In this document: positions 30,056 to 42,581 of the stretch, piece after piece | Layout: each line of letters begins with the position of its first letter | Position numbering within the stretch: the stretch's first letter is position 1 | Source of the DNA: Cystobacter ferrugineus | GTDB taxonomy: Bacteria; Myxococcota; Myxococcia; Myxococcales; Myxococcaceae | Direction of reading: 5' to 3' | Assembly: GCF_001887355.1 (NCBI RefSeq) | Contig: NZ_MPIN01000003.1 | Location: 1-64,000 of the forward strand | Length of the DNA: 64,000 nucleotides | Made by a program: the position numbers and the translations under genes | The notes under the pieces: model-generated | Told to the model about the DNA's origin: nothing | Seen by the model: only the letters and a program-made list of their open reading frames with translations | The model's database searches: none

Positions 30056-30736
30056 ATGGCGCGCATCCTGATCATCGAGGACGAGCAGGATCTGGCCGGA
30101 CTGGTGGAGTACAACCTCCGAGCCGCGGGATTCGAGGCGGAGGCGGTGGGCTCGGGTGCGAGTGGTCTGGCCCGGGCACGCGCCCAGCTACCGGACCTGC
30201 TGCTGTTGGATTTGATGTTGCCGGACCTGGCGGGCAGCGAGGTGTTGCGCCTGTTCAAGAGCGACGCCGAGCTGCGCAAGGTGCCCGTCATCATCGTGAG
30301 CGCCAAGGGCCAGGAGTCCGATCGCATCCAGGGCCTGGAGCTGGGCGCGGACGACTACGTGGTGAAGCCCTTCTCCGTGCGCGAGCTGCTGCTGCGGGTC
30401 AAGGCGGTGCTGCGGCGCGCGGACACGGAGGAAGGACCGGAGGCCCAGCTCTCCGTGGGCGACATCCAACTGGACACCTCGCGCCACCAGGTGCGCGCCC
30501 GGGGCCAGGAAGTGGCGCTCACCGCACTGGAGTTCCGCCTGCTGCGCACCCTCATGGAGCGCATCGATCGCGTGCAGACGCGCGAGGTGTTGCTCTCCGA
30601 TGTCTGGGGCATCCAGGCGGAGATCCACACCCGCACCGTGGACACCCACATCAAGCGCCTGCGCGAGAAGCTCGGCCCCGCGGGCGACATCATCGAGACG
30701 GTGCGCGGCGTGGGCTACAAGCTCACCCCCGCCTGA
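30056..30736 (+). CDS. phoB: PhoB/OmpR-family response regulator (first copy)
   Basis: The 226-aa protein has a receiver domain (ILIIEDEQDL, acceptor Asp in LLLDLMLPD, Lys in YVVKPFS) and a C-terminal winged-helix DNA-binding domain (LTALEFRLLRTLM, RTVDTHIKRLREKLG, ETVRGVGYKL). The ATG at 30056 follows GGAGGA. It is followed 21 bp later by a PhoR-like kinase gene, and a triple Pho box precedes it, so it is probably the phosphate regulator of this locus. A second PhoB-type gene lies 3 kb downstream. Confidence 0.92.
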   Translation: MARILIIEDEQDLAGLVEYNLRAAGFEAEAVGSGASGLARARAQLPDLLLLDLMLPDLAGSEVLRLFKSDAELRKVPVIIVSAKGQESDRIQGLELGADDYVVKPFSVRELLLRVKAVLRRADTEEGPEAQLSVGDIQLDTSRHQVRARGQEVALTALEFRLLRTLMERIDRVQTREVLLSDVWGIQAEIHTRTVDTHIKRLREKLGPAGDIIETVRGVGYKLTPA

Positions 30737-30757: not shown

Positions 30758-32119
30758 ATGCCCCCGCGTCTCTTCTTCTTTCCCCTGCTGGTGCCCGCGC
30801 TCGTGGCGCTCGTGCTCTTCCTGCTGCTGGGCTGGAAGATGGACGCCGTCTACGTGGCGCTCAGCTCCCTGGTGAGTTCCGTGCTCACCCTGATGGCCGT
30901 GCGCGAGTTGCTCCAGCGCCGCCTCGCCCGGCTCGCCCGGCAGATCCTCCAGCGTCCCGAGGGCCCCGCGGCCCCCCTCCCCACCGAGGACAAACGGGAG
31001 CAGTTCGACGAGGTGACGCTCTTCCAGCGGTCCCTGGAGTCGCTCCACCAGCGCATGTCCGCGCGCAACGCCGGACTGAACCAGGAGGCGCGCACCCTCA
31101 CCGCCGTGCTGGACGGCATGGCCGAGGGCATCTGGGTGACGGACGCCGAGGGCACCGTGGTGCGCCACAACGACGCGCTGCGCGCCATGTTGCGCACTGG
31201 GGAGATCGTCGGCCAGCGTCCACTCGCGCTCCTGCGGCATGACTCGCTCAACGAGGCCGTGCTGCGCGCGTGCCGCGAAGGTGCCTCCACCCGGCTCGAG
31301 CTGACGCTGGAGGGCGTGCTCCCCCTCACGCTGGCCATCCGGGTCACTCCCCTGGGGGGCGACCTGCCGGGCAGCGCCGCCGTCTTCCACGACGTCACCG
31401 AGCTGCGCCACCTGGAGAAGGTGCGCAAGGACTTCGTCGCCAACGTCTCGCACGAGCTGCGCACCCCCATCACCGCCATCCGCGGCTATGCCGAGACGCT
31501 CCAGGGTGGCGCGCTGGGGGACCCCCAGGTCGCGGCCCGGATGGTGGACATCATCCACCGCCAGTCCGAGCGCTTGTCGGAATTGGTCGAGGATCTGCTC
31601 GAACTGTCCCGGTTGGAATCACGCGAAGTGAAGCTGCGGGTCCAGGACGTCTCCATGGCGCTCGTGTCCACCCGGGCCGCGGAGGTGGTCCGGCACAAGG
31701 CCCAGGGCAAGCGCATCGCACTGGAGCTCAACGTCCCCCCGGACCTCCAGGCCCGAGGAGACGAGCGAGGGCTCGAGCAGGTGCTGCTCAACCTGCTGGA
31801 CAACGCGGTGAAGTACACGCCCGAGGGTGGGCGCGTGACGGTGGTGGGCGGCCAGGAAGACGGGCGGTGCGTGGTGCACGTGCACGACAGCGGGGTGGGA
31901 ATCGAGTCGCGGCACCTGGCGCGCATCTTCGAGCGCTTCTACCGTGTGGACAAAGGCCGCAGCCGGGACATGGGGGGCACGGGCCTGGGCCTGTCCATCG
32001 TCAAGCACCTGTTGAGCGCCATGGGCGGAGAGATCAGGGTGGAGAGCCAACCAAACGAGGGCTCCACCTTCACGATTTTCCTTCCGGCAACGGTGCCCTC
32101 GGAGGCGACGGCGGGTTAG
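30758..32119 (+). CDS. phoR: PhoR-like sensor histidine kinase
   Basis: The 453-aa protein has two N-terminal membrane helices without a large periplasmic loop (LFFFPLLVPALVALVLFLLLG, VYVALSSLVSSVLTLMA), then a PAS domain (LTAVLDGMAEGIWVTDAEG). The kinase core follows: phospho-His in NVSHELRTPITAIRGYAE, N-box NLLDNAVKYTP, DSGVGI, and GTGLGLSIVKH. This is the PhoR arrangement, in which Pi status is read through the Pst-PhoU complex rather than a periplasmic sensor. It is co-oriented with both phoB-type genes and pst. Confidence 0.93.
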   Translation: MPPRLFFFPLLVPALVALVLFLLLGWKMDAVYVALSSLVSSVLTLMAVRELLQRRLARLARQILQRPEGPAAPLPTEDKREQFDEVTLFQRSLESLHQRMSARNAGLNQEARTLTAVLDGMAEGIWVTDAEGTVVRHNDALRAMLRTGEIVGQRPLALLRHDSLNEAVLRACREGASTRLELTLEGVLPLTLAIRVTPLGGDLPGSAAVFHDVTELRHLEKVRKDFVANVSHELRTPITAIRGYAETLQGGALGDPQVAARMVDIIHRQSERLSELVEDLLELSRLESREVKLRVQDVSMALVSTRAAEVVRHKAQGKRIALELNVPPDLQARGDERGLEQVLLNLLDNAVKYTPEGGRVTVVGGQEDGRCVVHVHDSGVGIESRHLARIFERFYRVDKGRSRDMGGTGLGLSIVKHLLSAMGGEIRVESQPNEGSTFTIFLPATVPSEATAG

Positions 32120-32131
32120 GATGCCGCAGCC

Positions 32132-33076
32132 ATGCGGGTCGCCATCCTCGCCGACATTCACGGGAACCTCCCCGCCTGCGAGGCCGTCCTCGAGGACATC
32201 GCCCGCGTCGCACCCGACTACATCGTCGCCGCCGGAGACCTGGCCCTGCGCGGCGCCCATCCGCGCGAGACGGTGGAGCTGCTCTTCGACCGCTGCCATG
32301 CCCTCATCATGGGCAACACCGACTGCTACCTCGCGGGCCACTACCTCGGCGGCGCCTACCGCGAGCGCGACCACTGGAAGACGGAGCTGTTGCAGTGGAC
32401 GAGGGATCAGCTCGGTGAGGCGTGGCTCAAGCGCCTGGGCGCCATGCCCTTCTCCACGCGCTACTCGCCGCGCCGCGGGCAGGATCTCTTCGTCTGCCAC
32501 GCCAACCCGCGCAACCTCGAGGACTCGCTGGATCCGACGCTCGACGAGAACACCGTGCGCCGCTACTTCCAGCACCTGGACGCGGCCGCGTGTGCCTTCG
32601 GCCACCTGCACTTCCCCTACCGCCGCCGCGTGGGCCGGCTGCTCATCGCCGACGTGGCCAGCGCCGGCATCCCCCGCGACGGAGACCTGCGCCCGGCCTA
32701 CGGCGTCTTCACCTTCACGCCCCGGGGCTGGCGCGTGCAGATCCGCCGCGTGCGCTACCCGGTGCGCAAGGCCACCCAGGCGCTCACCGCGCGCCGCGTG
32801 CCCGGCGGTCCGCTCCTCATCCACAAGCTCGTCGAGGCGCGCTACCGCCACCACAAGGCGCTGATGGAGGCCGCGCGCCGCCACTCGGGGCTGCCCCCGC
32901 CCGGGCCAGTGCTGCGTCCGCCCCCGGGCGCCAACCTCCCGCCCCGGCCCCTGCCCCTGGACATGCCCGCCGTGGAGCCCCCCCTGCCCCACCACCACGA
33001 GGGCGAGGACGGCCCGAACGTGCCCATCGACGAGGAGCCCCTGCCGCTGTCCACCGTGCAGGACCTGGACGGCTGA
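32132..33076 (+). CDS. YfcE-like metallophosphoesterase with a proline-rich tail
   Basis: Residues ~1-200 have the calcineurin-like metal ligands: LADIHGN, AAGDLA, MGNTDC (GNTD variant as in YfcE/MPP families), CHANP, and FGHLHFPY. The remaining ~110 residues are basic, then Pro/His-rich and acidic (LPPPGPV..., EPPLPHHHEGEDG), probably disordered. It starts 12 bp after phoR and ends 96 bp before the second phoB-type gene. Substrate unknown; placement among Pho genes suggests release of phosphate from an organic ester, but this is inference. Confidence 0.85.
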   Translation: MRVAILADIHGNLPACEAVLEDIARVAPDYIVAAGDLALRGAHPRETVELLFDRCHALIMGNTDCYLAGHYLGGAYRERDHWKTELLQWTRDQLGEAWLKRLGAMPFSTRYSPRRGQDLFVCHANPRNLEDSLDPTLDENTVRRYFQHLDAAACAFGHLHFPYRRRVGRLLIADVASAGIPRDGDLRPAYGVFTFTPRGWRVQIRRVRYPVRKATQALTARRVPGGPLLIHKLVEARYRHHKALMEAARRHSGLPPPGPVLRPPPGANLPPRPLPLDMPAVEPPLPHHHEGEDGPNVPIDEEPLPLSTVQDLDG

Positions 33077-33172: not shown

Positions 33173-33865
33173 ATGCCCCACGTCCTCATCGTCGATGACG
33201 AGCGAGACCTCGCCGAGCTCATCGATTTCAATCTGCGCTCCGCGGGCTTCTCCACCCGCGTGGCCACCACCGCGGAGGCCGCGCTCCAGGCCTCCCGCGA
33301 ACAGCCCGTGGATGTCGTCCTGCTGGATGTGATGCTGCCGGACATGTCCGGCGTGGAGGTCTGCCGGCAGCTACGCTCCTCCGCGTCCACGCGTGACGTG
33401 CTCATCGTCATGCTCACCGCGCGCGGCGAGGAAGCCGATCGCGTGCGCGGCTTCGAGATGGGCGCCGACGACTACGTCACCAAGCCCTTCAGCGTGCGCG
33501 AGCTGGTGCTGCGGCTCAAGGCCATCCTGCGCCGGGGCAACCCGGGCCGGGAGGAGGCCTCCGCCGCGCTCAAGCTCGGCCCCCTCACGCTCGACACCCA
33601 TGCCCACCGCTTCTACGTGGATGGCAAGGAGGTGCCGCTCACCGCGCTGGAGTTCCGGCTGCTCGAGCACCTGCTCAGCCGCGTGGGACGGGTGCAGTCC
33701 CGCGAGCACCTGCTCGAGGAGGTCTGGGGCCTGTCCAGCCACCTGGAGACGCGCACCATCGACACCCACGTCATGCGCCTGCGCGACAAGCTCGGCTCCG
33801 CGCGCGCCTACCTCGAGACGGTGCGCGGCGTGGGCTACCGCATCGTCGCCCCGGACGCGGCCTGA
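33173..33865 (+). CDS. PhoB/OmpR-family response regulator (second copy)
   Basis: The 230-aa protein is again receiver (LIVDDERDL, Asp in LLDVMLPDMSG, Lys in YVTKPFS) plus winged helix (LTALEFRLLEHLLSR, RTIDTHVMRLRDKLG, ETVRGVGYRI). It is clearly a paralogue of the regulator at 30.1 kb but diverged in the receiver. The ATG at 33173 is the one adjoining the conserved VLIVDDE start. It lies 48 bp upstream of pstS with no terminator, so it is likely co-transcribed with it. No second kinase gene accompanies it. Confidence 0.9.
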   Translation: MPHVLIVDDERDLAELIDFNLRSAGFSTRVATTAEAALQASREQPVDVVLLDVMLPDMSGVEVCRQLRSSASTRDVLIVMLTARGEEADRVRGFEMGADDYVTKPFSVRELVLRLKAILRRGNPGREEASAALKLGPLTLDTHAHRFYVDGKEVPLTALEFRLLEHLLSRVGRVQSREHLLEEVWGLSSHLETRTIDTHVMRLRDKLGSARAYLETVRGVGYRIVAPDAA

Positions 33866-33912: not shown

Positions 33913-34734
33913 ATGAAGACGTTCATCGCCTCGCTCGCCTCGCTCCTCCTGCTCGTGCTCCCGGGCGCCGCCCGCGCCGGCACGGTCACCGTGAAGGGCT
34001 CGGACACCCTGGTCATCCTCGGCCAGCGCTGGGCCGAGGAGTTCATGAAGAAGAACCCCAACACCAAGCTGCAGGTGACGGGGGGTGGCTCGGGTGTGGG
34101 CCTGTCCGCCCTCATCAACGGCACCACGGACATCGCCATGTCCAGCCGCCCCATCAAGGACACGGAGAACAAGCAGCTCAGCGCGCGCACCAAGTCCAAC
34201 GCCACCGAGATCGCCGTGGCCAAGGACGGCGTCACGTTCTACGTCAACGAGTCCAACAAGCTCGACGCGCTCACCGCCGAGCAGCTGCGCGACATCTACC
34301 TGGGCGACATCACCAACTGGAAGGACGTGGGCGGCCCGGACGCTCCCATCGTCGTCTACTCGCGTGAGAACTCCTCGGGCACCTACGTGTTCGTCAAGGA
34401 CCATGTCCTCAAGGGCGAGGACTACACCCCGAGCGCCCAGACGCTGCCGGGCACCGCCGCGGTGGTGAACGCCGTGGCCAAGGAGAAGAACGGCATCGGC
34501 TACGGCGGCGCCGCCTACGCCAAGGGCATCAAGGAGCTCAAGGTGCTCCAGGGCAAGGAGGCCATCGCCCCGAGCGAGGCCAACATCAAGAGCGGCAAGT
34601 ACCCGCTCTCGCGCGACCTCTACTTCTACCTGCGCGCCAAACCCGAGGGCGAGGCCAAGGCCTTCCTCGACTACATCCTGTCGCCCGAAGGACAGGCGCT
34701 CGCCACGAAGGTCGGCTACTTCCCGGTGAAGTAG
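33913..34734 (+). CDS. pstS: Phosphate-binding periplasmic protein PstS
   Basis: The 273-aa protein has a cleavable signal peptide (FIASLASLLLLVLPGAARA) and the PstS fold: VTVKGSDTLVIL at the N-terminus, TGGGSGVGLSALINGTTDIAMSSR lining the phosphate site, SRENSSGTYVF, and YFYLRAKP near the end. It is the short PstS type (about 270 aa). AAGGAGA precedes the ATG. It delivers Pi to PstCAB, encoded next. Confidence 0.95.
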   Translation: MKTFIASLASLLLLVLPGAARAGTVTVKGSDTLVILGQRWAEEFMKKNPNTKLQVTGGGSGVGLSALINGTTDIAMSSRPIKDTENKQLSARTKSNATEIAVAKDGVTFYVNESNKLDALTAEQLRDIYLGDITNWKDVGGPDAPIVVYSRENSSGTYVFVKDHVLKGEDYTPSAQTLPGTAAVVNAVAKEKNGIGYGGAAYAKGIKELKVLQGKEAIAPSEANIKSGKYPLSRDLYFYLRAKPEGEAKAFLDYILSPEGQALATKVGYFPVK

Positions 34735-34794: not shown

Positions 34795-35811
34795 ATGGAT
34801 AGACAGGTGAGCATGCAGGGTCAGGGACTCGTGGGAATGGTGGCCGTGGCACCAAAGCTGTCCTCCGCGGCCCGGCGCAGACAACTGCGCGAGAAGGTCA
34901 TCGCCGGCGTCATCACGGCCATGGCCTTCACGGGCATCGCCGCGCTGGTGCTCATCCTCGTCTTCGTGGCCAAGGAAGCGCTCGCGCTCTTCCTGGACGC
35001 CGAGGCCCGGCACGAGGCGAGCCTCTCCAAGATGTTCCTGCCGCAGGTGACGCGCGCGGGCCGTCCCGCCACCTTCATGTGGCAGCCGGTGTCGTCGGTG
35101 CCCAAGGTGAGCATGATTCCGCTCTTCATCGGCACGCTCAAGACGACGCTCGTGTCCATGGTGGTGGCGGTGCCCGTGGGCGTGGCCGGCGCGCTGTTCG
35201 CGGCCGAGTTCGCGCCGCGCAGGCTGCGCGAGGTGCTCAAGCCCACCATCGAGCTGCTCGCGGGCATCCCCTCGGTGGTGCTCGGCTTCTTCGTGCTGAT
35301 GGTGCTCGCCAGCTTCATGCAGGACACCTTCCACGTGAGCTCGCGGCTCAACGCGCTGGTGGCGGGCCTGGGCCTGTCGCTCGCCATCGTCCCCGTCATC
35401 TTCACCGTCACCGAGGACGCGCTCACGGCGGTGCCGCGCAGCTACCGCGAGGCCTCGCTGGCGCTCGGCGCCACCCCCTGGGAGACGGCGTGGAAGGTGG
35501 TGTTGCCCGCCGCCGCCCCGGGCATCCTCGCCGCGTGCGTGCTGGGCTTCGGCCGCGCCATCGGCGAGACGATGATCGTCCTGATGGCCTCGGGCAACGC
35601 GGCCATCGTCTCCGCGTCGCTGACGGACTCGGCGCGCACGCTCTCGGCCACCATCGCCGCGGAGATGGGCGAGGTGGTGGTGGGCAGTCCGCACTACTCG
35701 CTGCTGTTCTTCCTCGGGGTGGAGCTCTTCGTCTTCACCTTCGTCCTCAACATGCTGGCGACCACCTGGACCCGGCGGGTCCTCAAGCGCTTGTCGGGAG
35801 CGGGAGCATGA
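34795..35811 (+). CDS. pstC: Phosphate ABC transporter permease PstC
   Basis: An inner-membrane permease of 338 aa with about six hydrophobic helices. It carries the permease EAA loop typical of PstC ([43 protein letters not shown]). After a basic N-terminus (ARRRQLREKV) the first helix is VITAMAFTGIAALVLILVFV. The stop overlaps pstA in an ATGA, so the two permeases are translationally coupled. A Pho box precedes the gene. Confidence 0.95.
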   Translation: MDRQVSMQGQGLVGMVAVAPKLSSAARRRQLREKVIAGVITAMAFTGIAALVLILVFVAKEALALFLDAEARHEASLSKMFLPQVTRAGRPATFMWQPVSSVPKVSMIPLFIGTLKTTLVSMVVAVPVGVAGALFAAEFAPRRLREVLKPTIELLAGIPSVVLGFFVLMVLASFMQDTFHVSSRLNALVAGLGLSLAIVPVIFTVTEDALTAVPRSYREASLALGATPWETAWKVVLPAAAPGILAACVLGFGRAIGETMIVLMASGNAAIVSASLTDSARTLSATIAAEMGEVVVGSPHYSLLFFLGVELFVFTFVLNMLATTWTRRVLKRLSGAGA

Positions 35812-36719
35812 GACACACCTGGCGCAGGGCCGTGGGCGGAGCGCTCACGTCCCTCACCGGCCTCGCCGCGCTGCTCATCGTCGCGCTGCTGGCCGTCATC
35901 CTCCTGGACGTGGTGCGCGGTGGCGCGGGCCACGTCACCTGGCAATTCCTTTCCGAGCCCCCCTCCGACGGCATGATGGGCGGCGGCATCTTCCCGGCCC
36001 TCTATGGCACGGCGGCGCTCACCCTGCTCATGACGCTCGCGGTGATGCCGGTGGGCGTGCTCACGGCGGTGTACCTGCACGAGTACGCGCCCCCGGGCTC
36101 GCTGCTCGCGCGCGCGGTGCGCGTGGCCGTGGTGAACCTGGCGGGCGTGCCCTCCATCGTCTTCGGCCTGTTCGGCGTGGGCTTCTTCATCCACTTCGTG
36201 GGCGGCAACATGGACCGGCTGCTCGGCTACCAGGAGTTGCACTGGGGCCAGCCGGGCATCCTCTGGGCCTCGCTCACGCTGGCGGTGCTCACCCTGCCCG
36301 TGGTCATCGTCTCCACCGAGGAGGCGCTCAAGGCGGTGCCCATGGATCACCGCACGGCGAGCCTCGCCCTGGGCGCCACCCAGAGCCAGACGCTCGTGCG
36401 CGTGGTGCTGCCCGGCGCGCTGCCCGGCATCCTCACTGGCGCCGTGCTGGCCATCTCCCGCGGCGCGGGCGAGGTGGCGCCCATCCTCTTCACCGGCGCG
36501 GCCTACTTCCTGCCCGACCTGCCCCACGCGATGAACTCCCAGTTCATGCACCTGGGCTACCACTCCTACGTGCTGGCCACCCAGTCCCCGGACGTGGAGG
36601 CCACCCGGCCACTGCTCTACGCCACGGTGCTGGTGCTGCTCGCGCTCACCTTCGCCCTCAACCTCGTCGCGGTGCTCATCCGCGCCCGCACCCGCCGGCG
36701 CGCCGCCGCGGCCCACTGA
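35808..36719 (+). CDS. pstA: Phosphate ABC transporter permease PstA
   Basis: The 303-aa partner permease has six hydrophobic segments and its own EAA-type loop ([52 protein letters not shown]), the last part being characteristic of PstA. The conserved SVVFGL-type segment reads [14 protein letters not shown]. The start overlaps the pstC stop by 4 bp. pstB follows after 13 bp. Confidence 0.95.
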
Positions 36720-36732
36720 CGCAAAGCGTGCC

Positions 36733-37512
36733 ATGCCCCACACTTCCCCTACTCCCGCGCGCATCAAGATGGAGTCGCGCGCCCTCACGCTGCGCTACGG
36801 CGCCAAGGTGGCCGTCCGCTCCGTGAGCCTCACCCTGCCCGAGCACCAGGTCACCGCGCTCATCGGACCCTCGGGCTGCGGCAAGTCCACCTTCCTGCGC
36901 TCGCTCAACCGGATGAACGATCTCATCCCGGGCTCCAGCCACGAGGGCACCGTGCTGCTCGAGGGCACGAGCATCCATGACCGCAACGTGGACGTGGTGG
37001 ACCTGCGCCGGCGCGTGGGCATGGTCTTCCAGAAGTCCAACCCCTTCCCCAAGAGCATCTTCGAGAACGTGGCCTACGGCCTGCGCGTGGGCGGGATGAA
37101 GGACAAGGCGGAGCTGGACGCGCGCGTGGAGAAGTCCCTGCAGGGCGCGGCGCTCTGGGACGAGGTGAAGGACCGGCTCGGCGACAGCGCCCTGGGCCTG
37201 TCCGGCGGCCAGCAGCAGCGCCTGTGCATCGCGCGCGCCCTCGCCGTGGAGCCCGAGGTGCTCCTCATGGACGAGCCCGCGAGCGCCCTGGATCCCATCG
37301 CCACGGCGAAGATCGAGGAACTCATCTACGAGCTCAAGGCGCGCTACACCATCGCCATCGTCACCCACAACATGCAGCAGGCGGCGCGCGTGAGCGAGCG
37401 CACGGCCTTCTTCTACATGGGCGAGCTGGTGGAGTGTGGACCCACCGAGCAGATCTTCACCAACCCGCGCGAGAAGCGCACCGAGGACTACGTCACCGGG
37501 AAGTTCGGCTGA
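36733..37512 (+). CDS. pstB: Phosphate ABC transporter ATPase PstB
   Basis: The 259-aa ATPase has Walker [21 protein letters not shown] (the RSLNRMND extension is specific for PstB), the Q-loop [12 protein letters not shown], the signature [17 protein letters not shown], Walker [14 protein letters not shown] and the H-loop [11 protein letters not shown]. It energises phosphate uptake through PstCA. It follows pstA and precedes phoU by 20 bp. Confidence 0.97.
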
Positions 37513-37532: not shown

Positions 37533-38225
37533 ATGCCGTCAGTGCATACCGACAAGGCGTTCGAAGCGGACCTGCGCGAGCTGCGCGAGAAGCTCCTGGC
37601 CATGGGCGCCAAGGTGGAAGCGCTCATCGCCGACAGCATGCGCGCGCTCATGGAGCGTGACACCCCCCTGGCCGAGGAGGTCACCTCCGGCGACAAGGAG
37701 GTCAACCGCCTCGAGGTGGAGATCGACGACGCGTGCCGCCGCATCCTCGCGCTGCGTCAGCCGGCCGCGAGCGACCTGCGCCTCATCACCACCGCGCTGA
37801 AGATCGTCACCGATCTGGAGCGCATTGGCGACCTGGCGGTGAACATCGCCGAGCGCGCCAAGGACCTCAACCAGGTCCCCCCGCTCAAGCCCTACGTGGA
37901 CATTCCCCGGCTGTCGGACCTGGCCCTTCAGCAGGTGAAGAAGGCGCTGGATGCCTTCGTGTCCTCGGACGCCGCCAAGGCCGAGGAGGTGCTCAAGGCG
38001 GATGATCACCTCGATGCCCTCTACCTGAAGATCTTCAACGAGCTGCTCGGCTTCATGATGGAGGACTCGAAGAACATCCGCCGCGCCACGGCCCTGATGT
38101 TCATCGCCAAACACCTCGAGCGGATCGGCGACCATGCCACCAACGTGGCCGAAATGGTCGTCTACATGGTGCGCGGCACCGATATCCGGCATCCGCGCAG
38201 CCGAAACCTGCCCTCGGGTTCCTGA
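37533..38225 (+). CDS. phoU: Phosphate signalling protein PhoU
   Basis: PhoU links the transporter to the PhoR kinase and keeps the regulon off in high phosphate. The 230-aa all-helical protein has two copies of the PhoU three-helix bundle with the metal-binding E/D-x3-D motifs (TDLERIGDLAVNIAERAKDL and KHLERIGDHATNVAEMVVYM). It is the last gene of the pst operon. Two GC hairpins follow within 60 bp. Confidence 0.95.
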   Translation: MPSVHTDKAFEADLRELREKLLAMGAKVEALIADSMRALMERDTPLAEEVTSGDKEVNRLEVEIDDACRRILALRQPAASDLRLITTALKIVTDLERIGDLAVNIAERAKDLNQVPPLKPYVDIPRLSDLALQQVKKALDAFVSSDAAKAEEVLKADDHLDALYLKIFNELLGFMMEDSKNIRRATALMFIAKHLERIGDHATNVAEMVVYMVRGTDIRHPRSRNLPSGS

Positions 38226-38239
38226 AAAAACGGTTTCTC

Positions 38240-38287
38240 GGGCAAGTGCTTGCCTGAACGCCCCCCAAGACATCACGGGGGCGTCAA
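38240..38287 (+). terminator. Hairpins after phoU
   Basis: GGCAAG and CTTGCC (38241-38254) form one stem; CGCCCCC and GGGGGCG (about 38259-38284) form another. Neither ends in a T run, and the second runs into the Pho box of the next gene, so termination may be partial and read-through possible. Confidence 0.4.
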
Positions 38288-38312
38288 ATTGTCGTCACAT
38301 ACCGTTTGGTAG
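38281..38312 (+). promoter_or_regulatory. Pho box and -10-like element before the GT21 glycosyltransferase
   Basis: GCGTCAA (38281) and TCGTCAC (38292) repeat at 11 bp; after 6 bp follows TTTGGTAG (38305-38312). Box register, 6-bp gap and TYTGGTAG element are the same as before the first PhoB-type regulator. The GTG start is 58 bp further. Confidence 0.7.
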
Positions 38313-38370
38313 CATCCTGCGCGCACCGCGCCCCCACCCCCGGGGTGACCTTCCTGCCCAGGAGCACGAC

Positions 38371-39621
38371 GTGTTCTCTACCCACGCCCTCGGTCTCGCC
38401 CTCCTCGTCGCAGCGGCCCTCGGAAGCTTCGTCCTCTGCGTCCAGCTCTTCTGTGTGTGGCTCCATCACCGGCGCCAGGCCCGCGTGGCCCCCGAGTCCA
38501 ACCCGTCGCGTCCCCTCAAGAGCATCTCCATCCTCAAGCCCCTGTGTGGGGTGGATGACGACCTGGAGGCCAACCTGGAGTGCTTCGCCACGCTGGACCA
38601 TCCGGCGTACGAGCTGCTCCTCGGGGTGAAGGACACCCGGGATGCGGCCTATCCCGTGGCCCAGGCGGCGGTGGCGCGCTGGCCGCACCGGGTGCGCCTG
38701 GTGGTGCAGCAGGGCGAGCCCGGCCTCAACCCCAAGGTGAACCAGCTCATCACCCTGGCGGCGGCGGCCCGCAACGAGCTGCTGCTCATCAGCGACTCCA
38801 ACACCCGCGTGGAGCCGGGCTACCTGGAGGAGATCTCCCGCACCTTCGAGGATCCCCGCGTGGGCTGCATGTCGCACCCCATCAGCGGGTTGGGCGAGCA
38901 GACGCTGGGCTCGCTCATGGACAACCTGTACCAGTGCACCTCCGCGGGCGCGGGGCAGATCTCCGCCAAGCTGGTCGCGGGCCAGGATCTCGTGGTGGGC
39001 AAGTCCATGGTGCTGCGCCGCTCGGTGGTGGACGCGCTCGACGGCTTCCGCGCGGTGGCCAACGTGCTGGCCGAGGACTTCGTCATCGGCCAGTGGGTGA
39101 CGCGGCGCATGGATCTGCGCTCGGTGGTGGCGCGCGCCCCCGTCTACAACGTGTCCCAGAAGAAGAGCGTGAAGACCTTCTTCAAGCGCTACGTACGCTG
39201 GAGCATCATCCACCACACCTGCATCCCCACGCCGCTGTACCTGGCGCAGTCCATCCTCAACCCCACGCCCTGGGCCCTGCTGGGCGTGATGCTGTCGCCC
39301 TCGGCCGAGGCGCTCGAGGCGGCCGGCGCGGTGGTGGGGGTGAAGCTGATGCACGACGTGGCCGTCTTCCAGATGATGCGGCCCGGACAGCGCACCCGGT
39401 GGGTGACGGTGCCCGCGGTGCTGCTCAAGGACATGTTGCTCTTCGCCGCCTGGGTCAATGGGCTGTTCGCCCGCTCGGTGGACTGGCGAGGGCACTCGCT
39501 CCGGGTCATGGCCGGCTCGCACCTGGTCGCGCCGCCCTCCGCCCTGCCCGCCCCCATTCCCCTGTCGGCCCCCCTGGCCGCGGCCGAGCCCGAGAACCGG
39601 GGCGAGCTGCTCGTGGGCTGA
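38371..39621 (+). CDS. GT21-type lipid glycosyltransferase (ceramide glucosyltransferase/Pgt/HpnI-like)
   Basis: The 416-aa protein has an N-terminal membrane helix (ALGLALLVAAALGSFVLCV), a family-2-like catalytic domain and C-terminal hydrophobic segments. All GT21 hallmarks are visible: Asp88 in VKDTR, the SDSN motif with Asp142, AEDF with Asp236, and RYVRW at 273-277 for the (Q/R)xxRW motif. Relatives are ceramide glucosyltransferases, HpnI and the rhizobial Pgt that makes glycolipids from diacylglycerol. A Pho box controls it, and a PlcP-like phosphoesterase follows 86 bp later. This points to glycolipid synthesis on phosphate limitation. The GTG start follows AGGAG. The acceptor (diacylglycerol, ceramide or other) cannot be read from sequence. 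Confidence 0.85.
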   Translation: MFSTHALGLALLVAAALGSFVLCVQLFCVWLHHRRQARVAPESNPSRPLKSISILKPLCGVDDDLEANLECFATLDHPAYELLLGVKDTRDAAYPVAQAAVARWPHRVRLVVQQGEPGLNPKVNQLITLAAAARNELLLISDSNTRVEPGYLEEISRTFEDPRVGCMSHPISGLGEQTLGSLMDNLYQCTSAGAGQISAKLVAGQDLVVGKSMVLRRSVVDALDGFRAVANVLAEDFVIGQWVTRRMDLRSVVARAPVYNVSQKKSVKTFFKRYVRWSIIHHTCIPTPLYLAQSILNPTPWALLGVMLSPSAEALEAAGAVVGVKLMHDVAVFQMMRPGQRTRWVTVPAVLLKDMLLFAAWVNGLFARSVDWRGHSLRVMAGSHLVAPPSALPAPIPLSAPLAAAEPENRGELLVG

Positions 39622-39623
39622 CG

Positions 39624-39652
39624 GGTTCACCGCGACGTCACCGGGTGCACCC
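39624..39652 (+). promoter_or_regulatory. Pho-box-like repeats before the PlcP-like gene
   Basis: GGTTCAC (39624) and ACGTCAC (39635) repeat at 11 bp; a third heptamer TGCACCC (39646) fits poorly. It starts 2 bp after the GT21 stop and lies 56 bp before the phosphoesterase. No TYTGGTAG element is present. Confidence 0.5.
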
Positions 39653-39707
39653 GGAAGAGTTACCTGGGGGCCATGGCCATGTTTCAGCCGGTGGGTACAT
39701 CCCCACC

Positions 39708-40544
39708 ATGCACCTGCGAACCCTGGCGCATCTGTCGGATCTCCACCTGGATCTCACCCCCGAGAGTGACACCACGGCCCGCGCGCTCGTGGAGAGCCTG
39801 CTCGCCGAGAGCGTGGACCATGTGGTGGTCACCGGGGATCTGACCCACCAGGGCAGTCAGCGCGAGTACAAGCGCTTCCGGGAAATCTTCGCCCCGCTGC
39901 TCGACGCCGGGCGGCTCACCTTCATCCCCGGCAACCATGATCGCACGGGCGAGGACGCGGGGAGCCGGTGGATGAACGGGCGCAAGGTGAAGGTCGAGCA
40001 CGCCGAGGGCCTGTACCTGGTGTGCGTGGACTCCACGGGCCCGCACAACCGCAACTACTTCGCCTGCCACGGCATGTTGACGCCCGGGGTGCTGGACGCC
40101 GTGGACGAGGCCCTGTGCGCCGCGCCGCGCGACGTGCTCACCGCGGTGCTCCTGCACCACCACGTGCTGCCCCTGCCGGAGGAGAGCTTCCCGGAGCGGC
40201 TGGCCACGCGCATGGGCTGGCCCAACGCCTCGGAACTCGCGCTGGGCGCCGAGATGGTGCAGCGGGTCCAGGGCCGGTGCGATCTCATCCTCCACGGACA
40301 CCGGCACGTGCCCCGCGAGTTCGACCTGGGGACGCCCCGGGGACGGGGCCTGCGCATCTACAACTCGGGCAGCTCCACGGAGATGGGGCGCTTCCGTGTT
40401 TTCTCGCATGCTGCGGGCCGGCTGACGGGGGCGCCGGTCTGGTACCGCGCCGCCCTGCCCCCCTCGCGCAAGCGCTCGTCGGCCCCCAACGTGGGACCAG
40501 CGTTGCAGTACCTGGCCTCGCAGTTGACGATGGCGCTCCTCTAG
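39708..40544 (+). CDS. PlcP-like metallophosphoesterase, 278 aa
   Basis: A calcineurin-like phosphoesterase with all metal ligands: LSDLHLD, VVTGDLT, IPGNHDR, LLHHHVLP and LHGHRH. There is no signal peptide or membrane helix, so it should act at the inner face of the membrane or in the cytoplasm. Size and the LAHLSDLHL start are like PlcP, the phosphate-starvation phospholipase C of Sinorhizobium that strips head groups from phospholipids. Other members of this large family act on cyclic nucleotides or UDP-diacylglucosamine, so substrate is inference from context: Pho repeats upstream and a lipid glycosyltransferase just before. The last ~30 residues are basic. Confidence 0.82.
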   Translation: MHLRTLAHLSDLHLDLTPESDTTARALVESLLAESVDHVVVTGDLTHQGSQREYKRFREIFAPLLDAGRLTFIPGNHDRTGEDAGSRWMNGRKVKVEHAEGLYLVCVDSTGPHNRNYFACHGMLTPGVLDAVDEALCAAPRDVLTAVLLHHHVLPLPEESFPERLATRMGWPNASELALGAEMVQRVQGRCDLILHGHRHVPREFDLGTPRGRGLRIYNSGSSTEMGRFRVFSHAAGRLTGAPVWYRAALPPSRKRSSAPNVGPALQYLASQLTMALL

Positions 40545-40782: not shown

Positions 40783-42099
40783 ATGCTCCAAAGCATCACC
40801 CTCGAAAACTTCAAGAGCTACAAGTTCGCGACGCTTCCGCTCGCCGAGTTGACGGTGCTCATCGGCGCCAATGCGTCCGGGAAGAGCAACCTCATCGAGG
40901 CAATTCAACTGCTGGCATGGATCGCGAAGGGGCGCAGGTTGAGCGACTTGGTGATGGTACTCAAGGAGCGAGATCTCTCGGTGCGAGGCACGCCACTCAA
41001 CCTCACCCATGGGAACGCGGTCTCATTTGGCTACGACTGCGTCATCACGGATGAGTCAGGTCCTGACCTCCAGCTCCAGATGCAACTGGAAGTGGACGAA
41101 CTGGGCATGCGGATCGTGAATGAGACGCTGTGGACGCTGGGTGGTGATACAGGGATGCCGCTGTACCAGATCGAAAAGCCCGCGACGGAGTACAGCAACG
41201 AAATTCAGGTCGCCTACAACAACTTCGCGCGAGGAGGGAAGAAGCCACGGGTTGTCTGCATCGACCAACAGGCTGTCTTCACCCAACTGACAACGCCCGC
41301 GCGATTCGGAAGCACACACCCCCGTTCTCAGAAGGAGATTCCCAAGGCGGCCGAGCGGCTCAGGCGCACGTTGGAGGCGGTCCTCTTTCTGGATCCGGTT
41401 CCGGGCGGGATGCGCGACTATAGCTTCCTCGTGGAGCGGGTTTTGCGGGGAGATGGATCCAACGTCTCGGCGGTGCTTCATGGCCTCTGCGCGGAACTCG
41501 CAGGAAAGGAGCAGGTTCTGGAGTTCGTCCGCTCATTGCCCGAGCAGGACATTCTGGACATTGACTTCCTGGATGGGCCCCGGGGGGAAGTCATGGTGAA
41601 ACTGAGGGAGTCGTTTGGCGGACAGGCACGCGAGACGGATGCAGCGCTCCTCTCCGACGGCACGCTCCGTGTGCTCGCAGTCGCTGCGGCGCTCCTGTCG
41701 GTTCCCGAGGGGTCGATGGTGGTCATTGAGGAGATCGACAACGGAGTACATCCGAGCCGCGCCGAGAGTCTGCTCAATCGCATTCAGGCCGTGGCGAAGC
41801 AACGGGCCTTGCGTGTGCTCCTGACCACCCACAATCCCGCGCTCCTCGACGCGATTCCGGTGGAATCCATTCCAGACGTTGTCGCCTGCTACCGGGATCC
41901 AGAACAGGGCGATAGTCGGCTGATTCGGCTGCAGGATCTGGAGCGCTACCCGGACCTGGTGGCGCAGGGTCCTATCGGTAGACTCGTCACCCAGGGAATC
42001 CTCGACCGCTTCCTCAAGAACCCTCCGGATACCGAGCAGGCACTCCAGCGGACCCAGGAGTTCTTCGACTTCCTCCAGCAGTCAGAGGAGGAAACATGA
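40783..42099 (+). CDS. AAA ATPase of the AAA15/AAA21 (ABC-like, OLD-type) class, 438 aa
   Basis: An SMC/ABC-like ATPase that stands alone. Walker A is GANASGKS at 28-35 in the setting ENFKSYKFATL. An ABC-type signature LLSDGTLRVL lies at ~289-298, Walker B VVIEEIDNG at 313-321, and the His switch LLTTHNPAL further on. Such ATPases drive nuclease partners in antiphage systems (OLD, AbiL, PARIS-type). The stop overlaps the PIN-like gene by 4 bp, so the two are made together. No TOPRIM domain is fused, unlike OLD. Codon use is less GC3-biased than in the phosphate genes, as in acquired DNA. The ATG at 40783 is taken because the conserved N-terminus starts there. Confidence 0.85.
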   Translation: MLQSITLENFKSYKFATLPLAELTVLIGANASGKSNLIEAIQLLAWIAKGRRLSDLVMVLKERDLSVRGTPLNLTHGNAVSFGYDCVITDESGPDLQLQMQLEVDELGMRIVNETLWTLGGDTGMPLYQIEKPATEYSNEIQVAYNNFARGGKKPRVVCIDQQAVFTQLTTPARFGSTHPRSQKEIPKAAERLRRTLEAVLFLDPVPGGMRDYSFLVERVLRGDGSNVSAVLHGLCAELAGKEQVLEFVRSLPEQDILDIDFLDGPRGEVMVKLRESFGGQARETDAALLSDGTLRVLAVAAALLSVPEGSMVVIEEIDNGVHPSRAESLLNRIQAVAKQRALRVLLTTHNPALLDAIPVESIPDVVACYRDPEQGDSRLIRLQDLERYPDLVAQGPIGRLVTQGILDRFLKNPPDTEQALQRTQEFFDFLQQSEEET

Positions 42100-42581
42100 G
42101 CGCGAACGTGGTGCTGATCGACACCAGCGTCCTCTGTGAAGTTCTCGCGGTTCCCAGTCTGAATTCGAATCCCAGCAAGTTTCAGAAGGAACTGACGGAG
42201 AAGATCGGCTCGGGTGACACACTGCTGCTTCCGATGACATCCATCCTGGAGACCGGCAACCACATTGGCCAGTGTGCGATGAATGGTCAGATCAGACGGA
42301 GGGTCGCTCAGTCCTTCGTGCTCTTCGTGCTCCGGGCGCTCAAAGGCGAATTGCCGTTTCGCCCCACACCTTTCTTCCAGGCCGAAGAACTCGTGACATG
42401 GCTCGCCGAGTTTCCAGACTGGACCATGCGCTCGGACGCCAAGGGAAAGGGCAGCGGTCTGGGGGATCTGACCATCCAGAAGGAGTGGCAGCGGCAGTGC
42501 GGGCTCAATCCGGGGCGGCGGGTCTACATCTGGTCGTTGGACGCGCAGCTCCAGAAGTACGACAGACCCCCCACGGTGTGA
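42096..42581 (+). CDS. PIN-like domain protein coupled to the AAA ATPase, 161 aa
   Basis: The pattern of acidic residues fits a PIN-fold RNase: LIDTSV with Asp9, Glu52 in SILETGNH, Asp124 in GLGDLTI and Asp149 in WSLDAQL. PIN proteins cleave RNA and are best known as VapC toxins, but no antitoxin-sized gene is adjacent; the partner is the ATPase upstream, overlapping by 4 bp with GAGGAGG in its end. I infer a two-component effector: ATPase sensor plus nuclease. A structure-specific DNA nuclease is an alternative. The family as a whole is not one I can name. Confidence 0.7.
   Translation: MSANVVLIDTSVLCEVLAVPSLNSNPSKFQKELTEKIGSGDTLLLPMTSILETGNHIGQCAMNGQIRRRVAQSFVLFVLRALKGELPFRPTPFFQAEELVTWLAEFPDWTMRSDAKGKGSGLGDLTIQKEWQRQCGLNPGRRVYIWSLDAQLQKYDRPPTV

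Follow-up and report, generated by a model that had tools for sequence, protein, structure and literature searches.

The window analyzed here, a stretch of 64,000 nucleotides from Cystobacter ferrugineus (contig NZ_MPIN01000003.1), contains a pst-phoU cluster that is directly followed by two genes, one encoding a glycosyltransferase of family GT21 and the other a metallophosphoesterase, which we read as a candidate glycolipid module. All genes of the row lie on the plus strand in the order phoB-like, phoR-like, small phosphoesterase, phoB-like, pstS, pstC, pstA, pstB, phoU, GT21, and metallophosphoesterase, and the last of these starts 86 bp past the GT21 stop codon (coordinates in Table 1). 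A first-pass annotation, made from the letters of the sequence, had placed this pair after pst-phoU, and both genes are indeed present there. It had also described the phosphoesterase as being of PlcP type and the pair as a lipid-remodelling module; these two claims fare differently, as detailed below.

The GT21 protein matches PF13506 (E-value 2.9e-39) and has the Asp motifs and the (Q/R)xxRW motif of its family. These had been noted as intact, and D91, D142, E235-D236, and RxxRW (R273, R276, W277) proved to be invariant across 20 aligned sequences. Its AlphaFold2 model, with a predicted local distance difference test score (pLDDT) of 90.5, has a glycosyltransferase domain that is preceded by one long helix at the N-terminus and followed by several helices at the C-terminus. 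By sequence, the protein is clearly related to a solved ceramide glucosyltransferase (E 3.4e-29). The best 50 Foldseek matches of the model include processive enzymes, e.g., hyaluronan synthase and cellulose synthase, and none of them is a GT21. GT21 has been named among the families of glycoglycerolipid synthases (PMC8231724, excerpt).

HpnI is the best NCBIfam model for the window GT21 (E 1.6e-62) and the nearest known subfamily in our tree, which might suggest a hopanoid glycosyltransferase and a locus devoted to hopanoid modification. We rejected this reading, which we find hardly credible, on the basis of the model score (211.5 bits versus an equivalog cut-off of 310), the placement of the HpnI references in a starred clade of their own, and a search of the C. 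ferrugineus genome that found no HpnH over the cut-off (best 44.9 versus 225; 14 control genomes also failed, leaving the search with no positive control). In addition, neither hpnJ nor hpnK adjoins GT21 in the window. In the same tree, for which midpoint rooting alone was used, the window enzyme falls within a starred clade of ten myxobacterial sequences, apart from HpnI and from the PlcP-adjacent GT21s of Fuscovulum, Gemmobacter, and Pannonibacter. The latter form a separate starred branch and are 24-26% identical to the window enzyme, which lies outside their clade. The Pgt proteins of A. tumefaciens and M. loti themselves are outside the sequence set of this tree.

Pho boxes were scored with a lineage matrix trained only on the window phoB, phoB2, and pstC promoters and on orthologous pst/pho promoters. 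With this matrix, the triple 11-bp repeat upstream of GT21 ranked third among 127,944 places in the window, behind two training sites, and the pair 38281-38298 within it ranked fifth of 127,966, with only training sites above it. Against 4000 random stretches the triple had a p value of 0.0025, which is conservative, as the background still included Pho promoters. Similar repeats precede GT21 in most of nine orthologous loci, and the upstream pair reached p < 0.05 in 8 of 10 loci (window included). An 11-bp direct-repeat box of the Pho regulon is thus found before GT21 by the lineage matrix and not by the E. coli consensus. The Pho box of GT21 is a solid prediction from sequence, and the lineage-matrix and locus p values make GT21 very likely a Pho gene; a GT21 lipid glycosyltransferase with an upstream Pho box is well supported.

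The first-pass annotation had seen Pho repeats before each of the two genes, and for the second this holds less well. The pair preceding the phosphoesterase ranked 11th of 127,966, and four of the places that outrank it are non-pho (p = 0.016 against the same random stretches). Among the 10 loci, the phosphoesterase-upstream pair reached p < 0.05 in 3 and the triple in 5. We regard this second putative box as plausible but weak, and the phosphoesterase may be transcribed from the GT21 promoter or from a weak promoter of its own.

The metallophosphoesterase matches PF00149 (E 3.8e-17). In an alignment of 19 sequences, from which locus L105 was excluded owing to an inner stop codon, D11, H13, D44, N76, H77, H150-152, and H200 are invariant and H198 is nearly so; we take these to be the metal-site residues of the superfamily. 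The AlphaFold2 model is confident (pLDDT 89.5), and its top solved fold is Rv0805 (Foldseek E 1.8e-16; VIA Z 23.9 over 213 residues, root-mean-square deviation 2.6), with which Lmo2642 ties (VIA Z 23.9). GpdQ follows at about 20% identity (Foldseek E 2.6e-13; VIA Z 23.4 over 217 residues, root-mean-square deviation 2.7). The protein is therefore calcineurin-like, with an Rv0805/GpdQ fold and the conserved metal-site set. LpxH ranked 19th in Foldseek (E 1.5e-9) and was absent from the best 50 VIA rows, an absence that excludes nothing. The best NCBIfam match was the antiphage model DS9_1 (67.6 bits, cut-off 420), which we took as superfamily likeness only. While it shares its fold and its Asp/Asn/His set with the class III-like phosphodiesterases Rv0805, GpdQ, and CpdA, the window family differs from them in its low identity (~20%), in a DST..HNR stretch of its own, and in its pst-phoU/GT21 context.

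The high rank of Rv0805, together with a BLAST match to E. coli CpdA (E 3e-7 or 0.04, depending on the direction of comparison), could point to a cyclic-nucleotide phosphodiesterase of CpdA/Rv0805 type that tunes phosphate-starvation signalling. We consider this quite improbable: the CpdA equivalog model scores 35.5 against a cut-off of 225, the window family forms its own supported clade (97/99), and a signalling role would leave the pairing with GT21 unexplained. The place of GpdQ among the best structural matches raises another alternative, namely that GT21 makes a Pho-induced glycolipid while the phosphoesterase, a glycerophosphodiesterase like GpdQ, recovers phosphate from the glycerophosphodiesters that other lipases leave behind and does not make the acceptor. 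Such an enzyme would suit a Pho regulon, but the low identity to GpdQ and the recurrent partnership with a lipid glycosyltransferase, which it leaves unexplained, render it unlikely in our view.

Is the phosphoesterase a PlcP? The PlcP references were chosen by gene context: that of S. meliloti, presumably SMc00171, lies beside LuxR-type and acyl-homoserine-lactone synthase genes, and that of P. aeruginosa lies beside glycosyltransferase and cyclase-domain genes. The published P. aeruginosa gene is PA3219, with agt1 downstream, and the published identity of the pair is 46% (PMC8528852, excerpt); our two references are 46.6% identical. By BLAST, four PlcPs matched E. coli LpxH at E 2e-10 to 3e-5, and the window phosphoesterase matched the same four at E 0.014 to 3.5 only. 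In the tree, a 100/100 branch parts PlcP plus LpxH from the window family, although finer placement is unsure owing to several long branches, including that of LpxH. The window protein has no significant match to PlcP; closer to it are a Ruegeria phosphodiesterase of CpdA-like type (E 2e-9) and a phosphoesterase of Roseomonas (E 1e-14). BLAST by itself does not separate the groups cleanly: for S. meliloti PlcP, the match to E. coli CpdA (E 6e-5 or 1e-3) is about as good as that to LpxH (E 3e-5), and at this distance the superfamily is continuous. On the E-values and the 100/100 branch we rejected a PlcP identity for the window phosphoesterase, which lies outside the PlcP clade, and the PlcP label of the first-pass annotation was dropped. 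That annotation had also named a firm placement with cyclic-nucleotide or LpxH-type enzymes as evidence against its reading. The protein leans to the cyclic-nucleotide half, yet stays below the CpdA equivalog cut-off, and the question was ill-posed because PlcP is itself LpxH-like.

The Roseomonas gene (L080:1887-4918), whose product is 28% identical to the window phosphoesterase, adjoins genes for a CDP-alcohol phosphatidyltransferase and a diacylglycerol-kinase-family protein.

A search of 58 genomes with a single PlcP sequence gave one weak partial match (E 5.6e-5). A PlcP profile matched 10 of the 58 at E <= 0.001, the best being G025 (4.3e-11, 44.5 bits) and G035 (6.5e-11, two places), with none in the C. 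ferrugineus genome itself. Two of the ten (G038 and G049) were loci of the window's own phosphoesterase family, and in the best match (L164), inspection by eye showed no HGDxxD stretch, a motif common to all sequences of the PlcP alignment. Collectively, sequence and profile searches revealed no convincing PlcP in the 58 genomes, the profile having been used without a positive control on a PlcP-bearing genome. The window phosphoesterase does share one trait with many, though not all, PlcP loci, i.e., a gene position beside a lipid glycosyltransferase.

No 17-residue stretch of the phosphoesterase is more hydrophobic than its last 17 residues, for which a mostly helical structure is predicted with modest confidence (pLDDT ~70); in the model, such a C-terminal helix would fit membrane contact. 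The protein has no evident signal peptide. We infer a cytosolic location, as we do the substrate proposed below.

Whether the two families co-occur across myxobacteria, a question raised by the first-pass annotation, was assessed in 59 genomes (own included), counting the best 30 phosphoesterase and the best 39 GT21 matches and dropping weaker ones. The phosphoesterase family occurs in 28 genomes, the GT21 family in 36, and both in 24. In 20 of these 24 the pair lies within 3 kb, with GT21 first in 15, the phosphoesterase first on the same strand in 4, and opposite strands in 1. Since the genomes are related by ancestry, these adjacencies are not independent events. In addition, phoU lies within ~1.5 kb of GT21 in 18 of 30 GT21 loci. 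A conserved association of the two genes in myxobacteria is supported.

A scan of the genome collection for the phosphoesterase family (best 80 of 318 relatives) yielded 28 loci at 42-80% identity, below which the next match falls to 38% over half the protein (E 8e-17). Of these, 26 belong to Myxococcota (Archangium, Myxococcus, Pyxidicoccus, Corallococcus, Hyalangium, Citreicoccus, Anaeromyxobacter, and metagenome-assembled genomes), counting L106, a record titled Deltaproteobacteria that the tree tool labelled Myxococcota. Orthologues of the pair are present in the M. eversor and C. exercitus loci L087 and L089. GT21 lies within ~1.4 kb in 20 of the 28 loci, and in 2 of the other 8 the available DNA ends near the gene; the loci without GT21 revealed no common theme among the phosphoesterase neighbours. 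A phoU gene is visible in 10 of the 28 loci, several of which are short, and a PhoB-like gene without phoU occurs in 4 more (L101, L102, L106, and L107).

Two members of the family come from Candidatus Uhrbacteria metagenome-assembled genomes (L109:10001-10723 and L110:7839-8618; 42-44% identity, without a GT21 match) and may reflect transfer or misbinning. At L101:9680-12319, the family phosphoesterase directly follows the phoB-like gene, without GT21, and faces a gene for a Ppx/GppA-type (polyphosphate/ppGpp) phosphatase.

With a confidence slightly better than even, we favor the reading that the pair is a Pho-linked glycolipid module of Myxococcota that exchanges phospholipids for glycolipids under phosphate scarcity. 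Its direct basis is the gene identity, the motifs, the GT21 Pho box, the conserved pairing, the pst-phoU context, and the non-membership of the phosphoesterase in PlcP. Falling phosphate uptake via Pst would cause a PhoB-like regulator to bind the 11-bp repeats and raise GT21 expression. At the inner membrane, GT21 would use a UDP-sugar to glycosylate a neutral lipid with two chains, proposed to be diacylglycerol or ceramide, giving a phosphorus-free glycolipid. The neighbouring phosphoesterase would strip or recycle the phosphate of phospholipid head groups or of a lipid intermediate. It would most likely do so as an enzyme resembling phospholipase C or as a hydrolase of lipid phosphodiesters, thereby providing the acceptor and releasing phosphate. 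Both enzymes would be induced at low phosphate and would act in one pathway. Of the lipid remodelling suggested at first, the layout, the GT21 Pho box, and the conserved pairing stand, and the homology of the phosphoesterase to PlcP does not. Phospholipid-to-glycolipid remodelling is nevertheless a good hypothesis, given the analogous layout and regulation, though not through homology of the phosphoesterase to PlcP.

Several observations weigh against this module. The phosphoesterase is not a PlcP, and the solved proteins closest to it in fold have cyclic nucleotides or glycerophosphodiesters as substrates. The hydrophobic moment of its C-terminal helix is modest (0.27), and the box before its gene is weak. 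The E. coli consensus alone fails to single out the window Pho sites: the fraction of 300 shuffles scoring as high was 0.63 for the GT21 pair and 0.033 for the GT21 triple (a minus-strand site covering the same upstream repeat), and 0.44 and 0.37 for the phosphoesterase pair and triple. Pairing is not obligatory either: in 12 of the 59 genomes the GT21 family is listed and the phosphoesterase is not, and the dropped matches of one of the 12 (G008) include a partial phosphoesterase next to GT21 at the edge of a contig. Conversely, four genomes (G005, G007, G015, and G021) have the phosphoesterase without a listed GT21, and the GT21 matches of G015 and G021 (37-40% identity) were dropped just under the cut. 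Finally, at six loci GT21 lies near phoU with no adjoining phosphoesterase. The genomes of four of these (L039, L040, L041, and L044) have no listed family member, that of L046 (G011) has two phosphoesterase copies elsewhere, and that of L048 (G026) has one 14 kb away. Given these six loci, GT21 looks like the tighter Pho neighbour and the core of the module, with the phosphoesterase as a frequent partner. At a further locus (L047:1426-3993), in one relative, GT21 is followed by a cyclopropane-fatty-acid-synthase-type gene (PF02353) in place of the phosphoesterase, a lipid context that we counted in favor of the glycolipid module.

The layout is not new, because phosphoesterase-glycosyltransferase operons with Pho boxes are already established for PlcP-Agt. 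PlcP adjoins several glycosyltransferases, including one studied by Devers et al., according to Sebastian et al. (PMC4796936, excerpt). The PlcP-Agt systems of S. meliloti, Phaeobacter MED193, P. aeruginosa, and SAR11 resemble the window, as far as the excerpts describe them, in neighbouring genes, Pho boxes, and low-phosphate logic; they combine an LpxH-like PlcP with a GT4 Agt, whereas the window has an Rv0805/GpdQ-fold phosphoesterase and a GT21. On alphaproteobacterial plasmids (Fuscovulum, Gemmobacter, and Pannonibacter), a GT21 annotated as a 'ceramide glucosyltransferase' adjoins a metallophosphoesterase as in the window, but that phosphoesterase is PlcP-like and those GT21s form the separate clade described above. 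Pgt of Agrobacterium and Mesorhizobium is likewise comparable to the window GT21; that of A. tumefaciens has a predicted Pho box and accepts diacylglycerol or ceramide (PMC3972451, excerpt). Caulobacter glycosylates ceramide and diacylglycerol at low phosphate, with GT4-type enzymes for ceramide (PMC6445935, excerpt). Caulobacter Sgt1/Sgt2 and the Desulfovibrio Agt homologue share with the window this link between lipid glycosylation and phosphate limitation, but are GT4-type or group I glycosyltransferases for which the excerpts name no paired phosphoesterase. A review of the Pho regulon mentions Myxococcus (PMC4415409). Our search of mainly open-access literature found no phosphate-dependent glycolipids or PlcP-type remodelling in myxobacteria themselves, which is no proof of absence. 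Judging from sequence, the new part would be that both enzymes come from other subfamilies, in a phylum without such a report in the literature searched.

The Pho-linked module was apparently assembled independently of PlcP-Agt and Pgt. More specifically, we tentatively postulate, while leaning towards doubt, that the myxobacterial exchange evolved independently, with an Rv0805/GpdQ-type intracellular phospholipase C replacing PlcP and paired under Pho control with a GT21 clade of its own, such that neither enzyme is orthologous to its proteobacterial counterpart. If true, phosphate-sparing lipid exchange would extend to predatory soil myxobacteria via a different enzyme pair, and surveys with PlcP as a marker would overlook it. 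In addition, a calcineurin-like subfamily would acquire a lipid role that can be tested in culturable hosts (Myxococcus, Corallococcus, and Archangium relatives).

Table 1. Positions in the window of the gene pair, its Pho-box-like repeats, and the preceding pst/pho genes
Feature	Position	Strand	Basis
GT21 lipid glycosyltransferase	38371..39621	+	416 amino acids, GTG start; PF13506, motifs, AlphaFold2 model, tree
Metallophosphoesterase, distinct subfamily with Rv0805/GpdQ fold, not PlcP	39708..40544	+	278 amino acids; PF00149, alignment, trees, model
Pho-box-like triple 11-bp direct repeat upstream of GT21	38270..38298	+	Lineage-matrix rank, p value, orthologous loci
Weaker Pho-box-like pair between GT21 and phosphoesterase	39624..39641	+	Lineage-matrix rank, p value; retained in only some orthologous loci
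PhoB-like regulators, two	30056-30736, 33173-33865	+	Best NCBIfam match PhoB, 246 and 251 bits, cut-off 296
PnpS/PhoR-like kinase	30758-32119	+	Best NCBIfam match PnpS, 385 bits, cut-off 400
Second metallophosphoesterase	32132-33076	+	PF00149/PF12850
pstS	33913-34734	+	Over NCBIfam cut-off
pstC	34795-35811	+	Over NCBIfam cut-off
pstA	35802-36719	+	Over NCBIfam cut-off
pstB	36733-37512	+	Over NCBIfam cut-off
phoU	37533..38225	+	TIGR02135, 239.5 bits, cut-off 130.25

The two PhoB-like regulators and the PnpS/PhoR-like kinase are named by best match only, all three being below their NCBIfam cut-offs. Directly after the gene pair, at 40783-42581, lie an AAA ATPase and a 161-amino-acid open reading frame without an NCBIfam match. 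The ATPase is similar to an antiphage one (MADS3 model, 76.5 bits, cut-off 420); the ~590 bases available past the pair in the close relatives L033 and L034 did not show it. The second metallophosphoesterase, which is encoded between the phoR-like and the second phoB-like genes, has a YfcE-type phosphodiesterase as its best curated match, below the cut-off, and matches of 77-92% identity occupy the equivalent position in L084, L086, L101, and L102.

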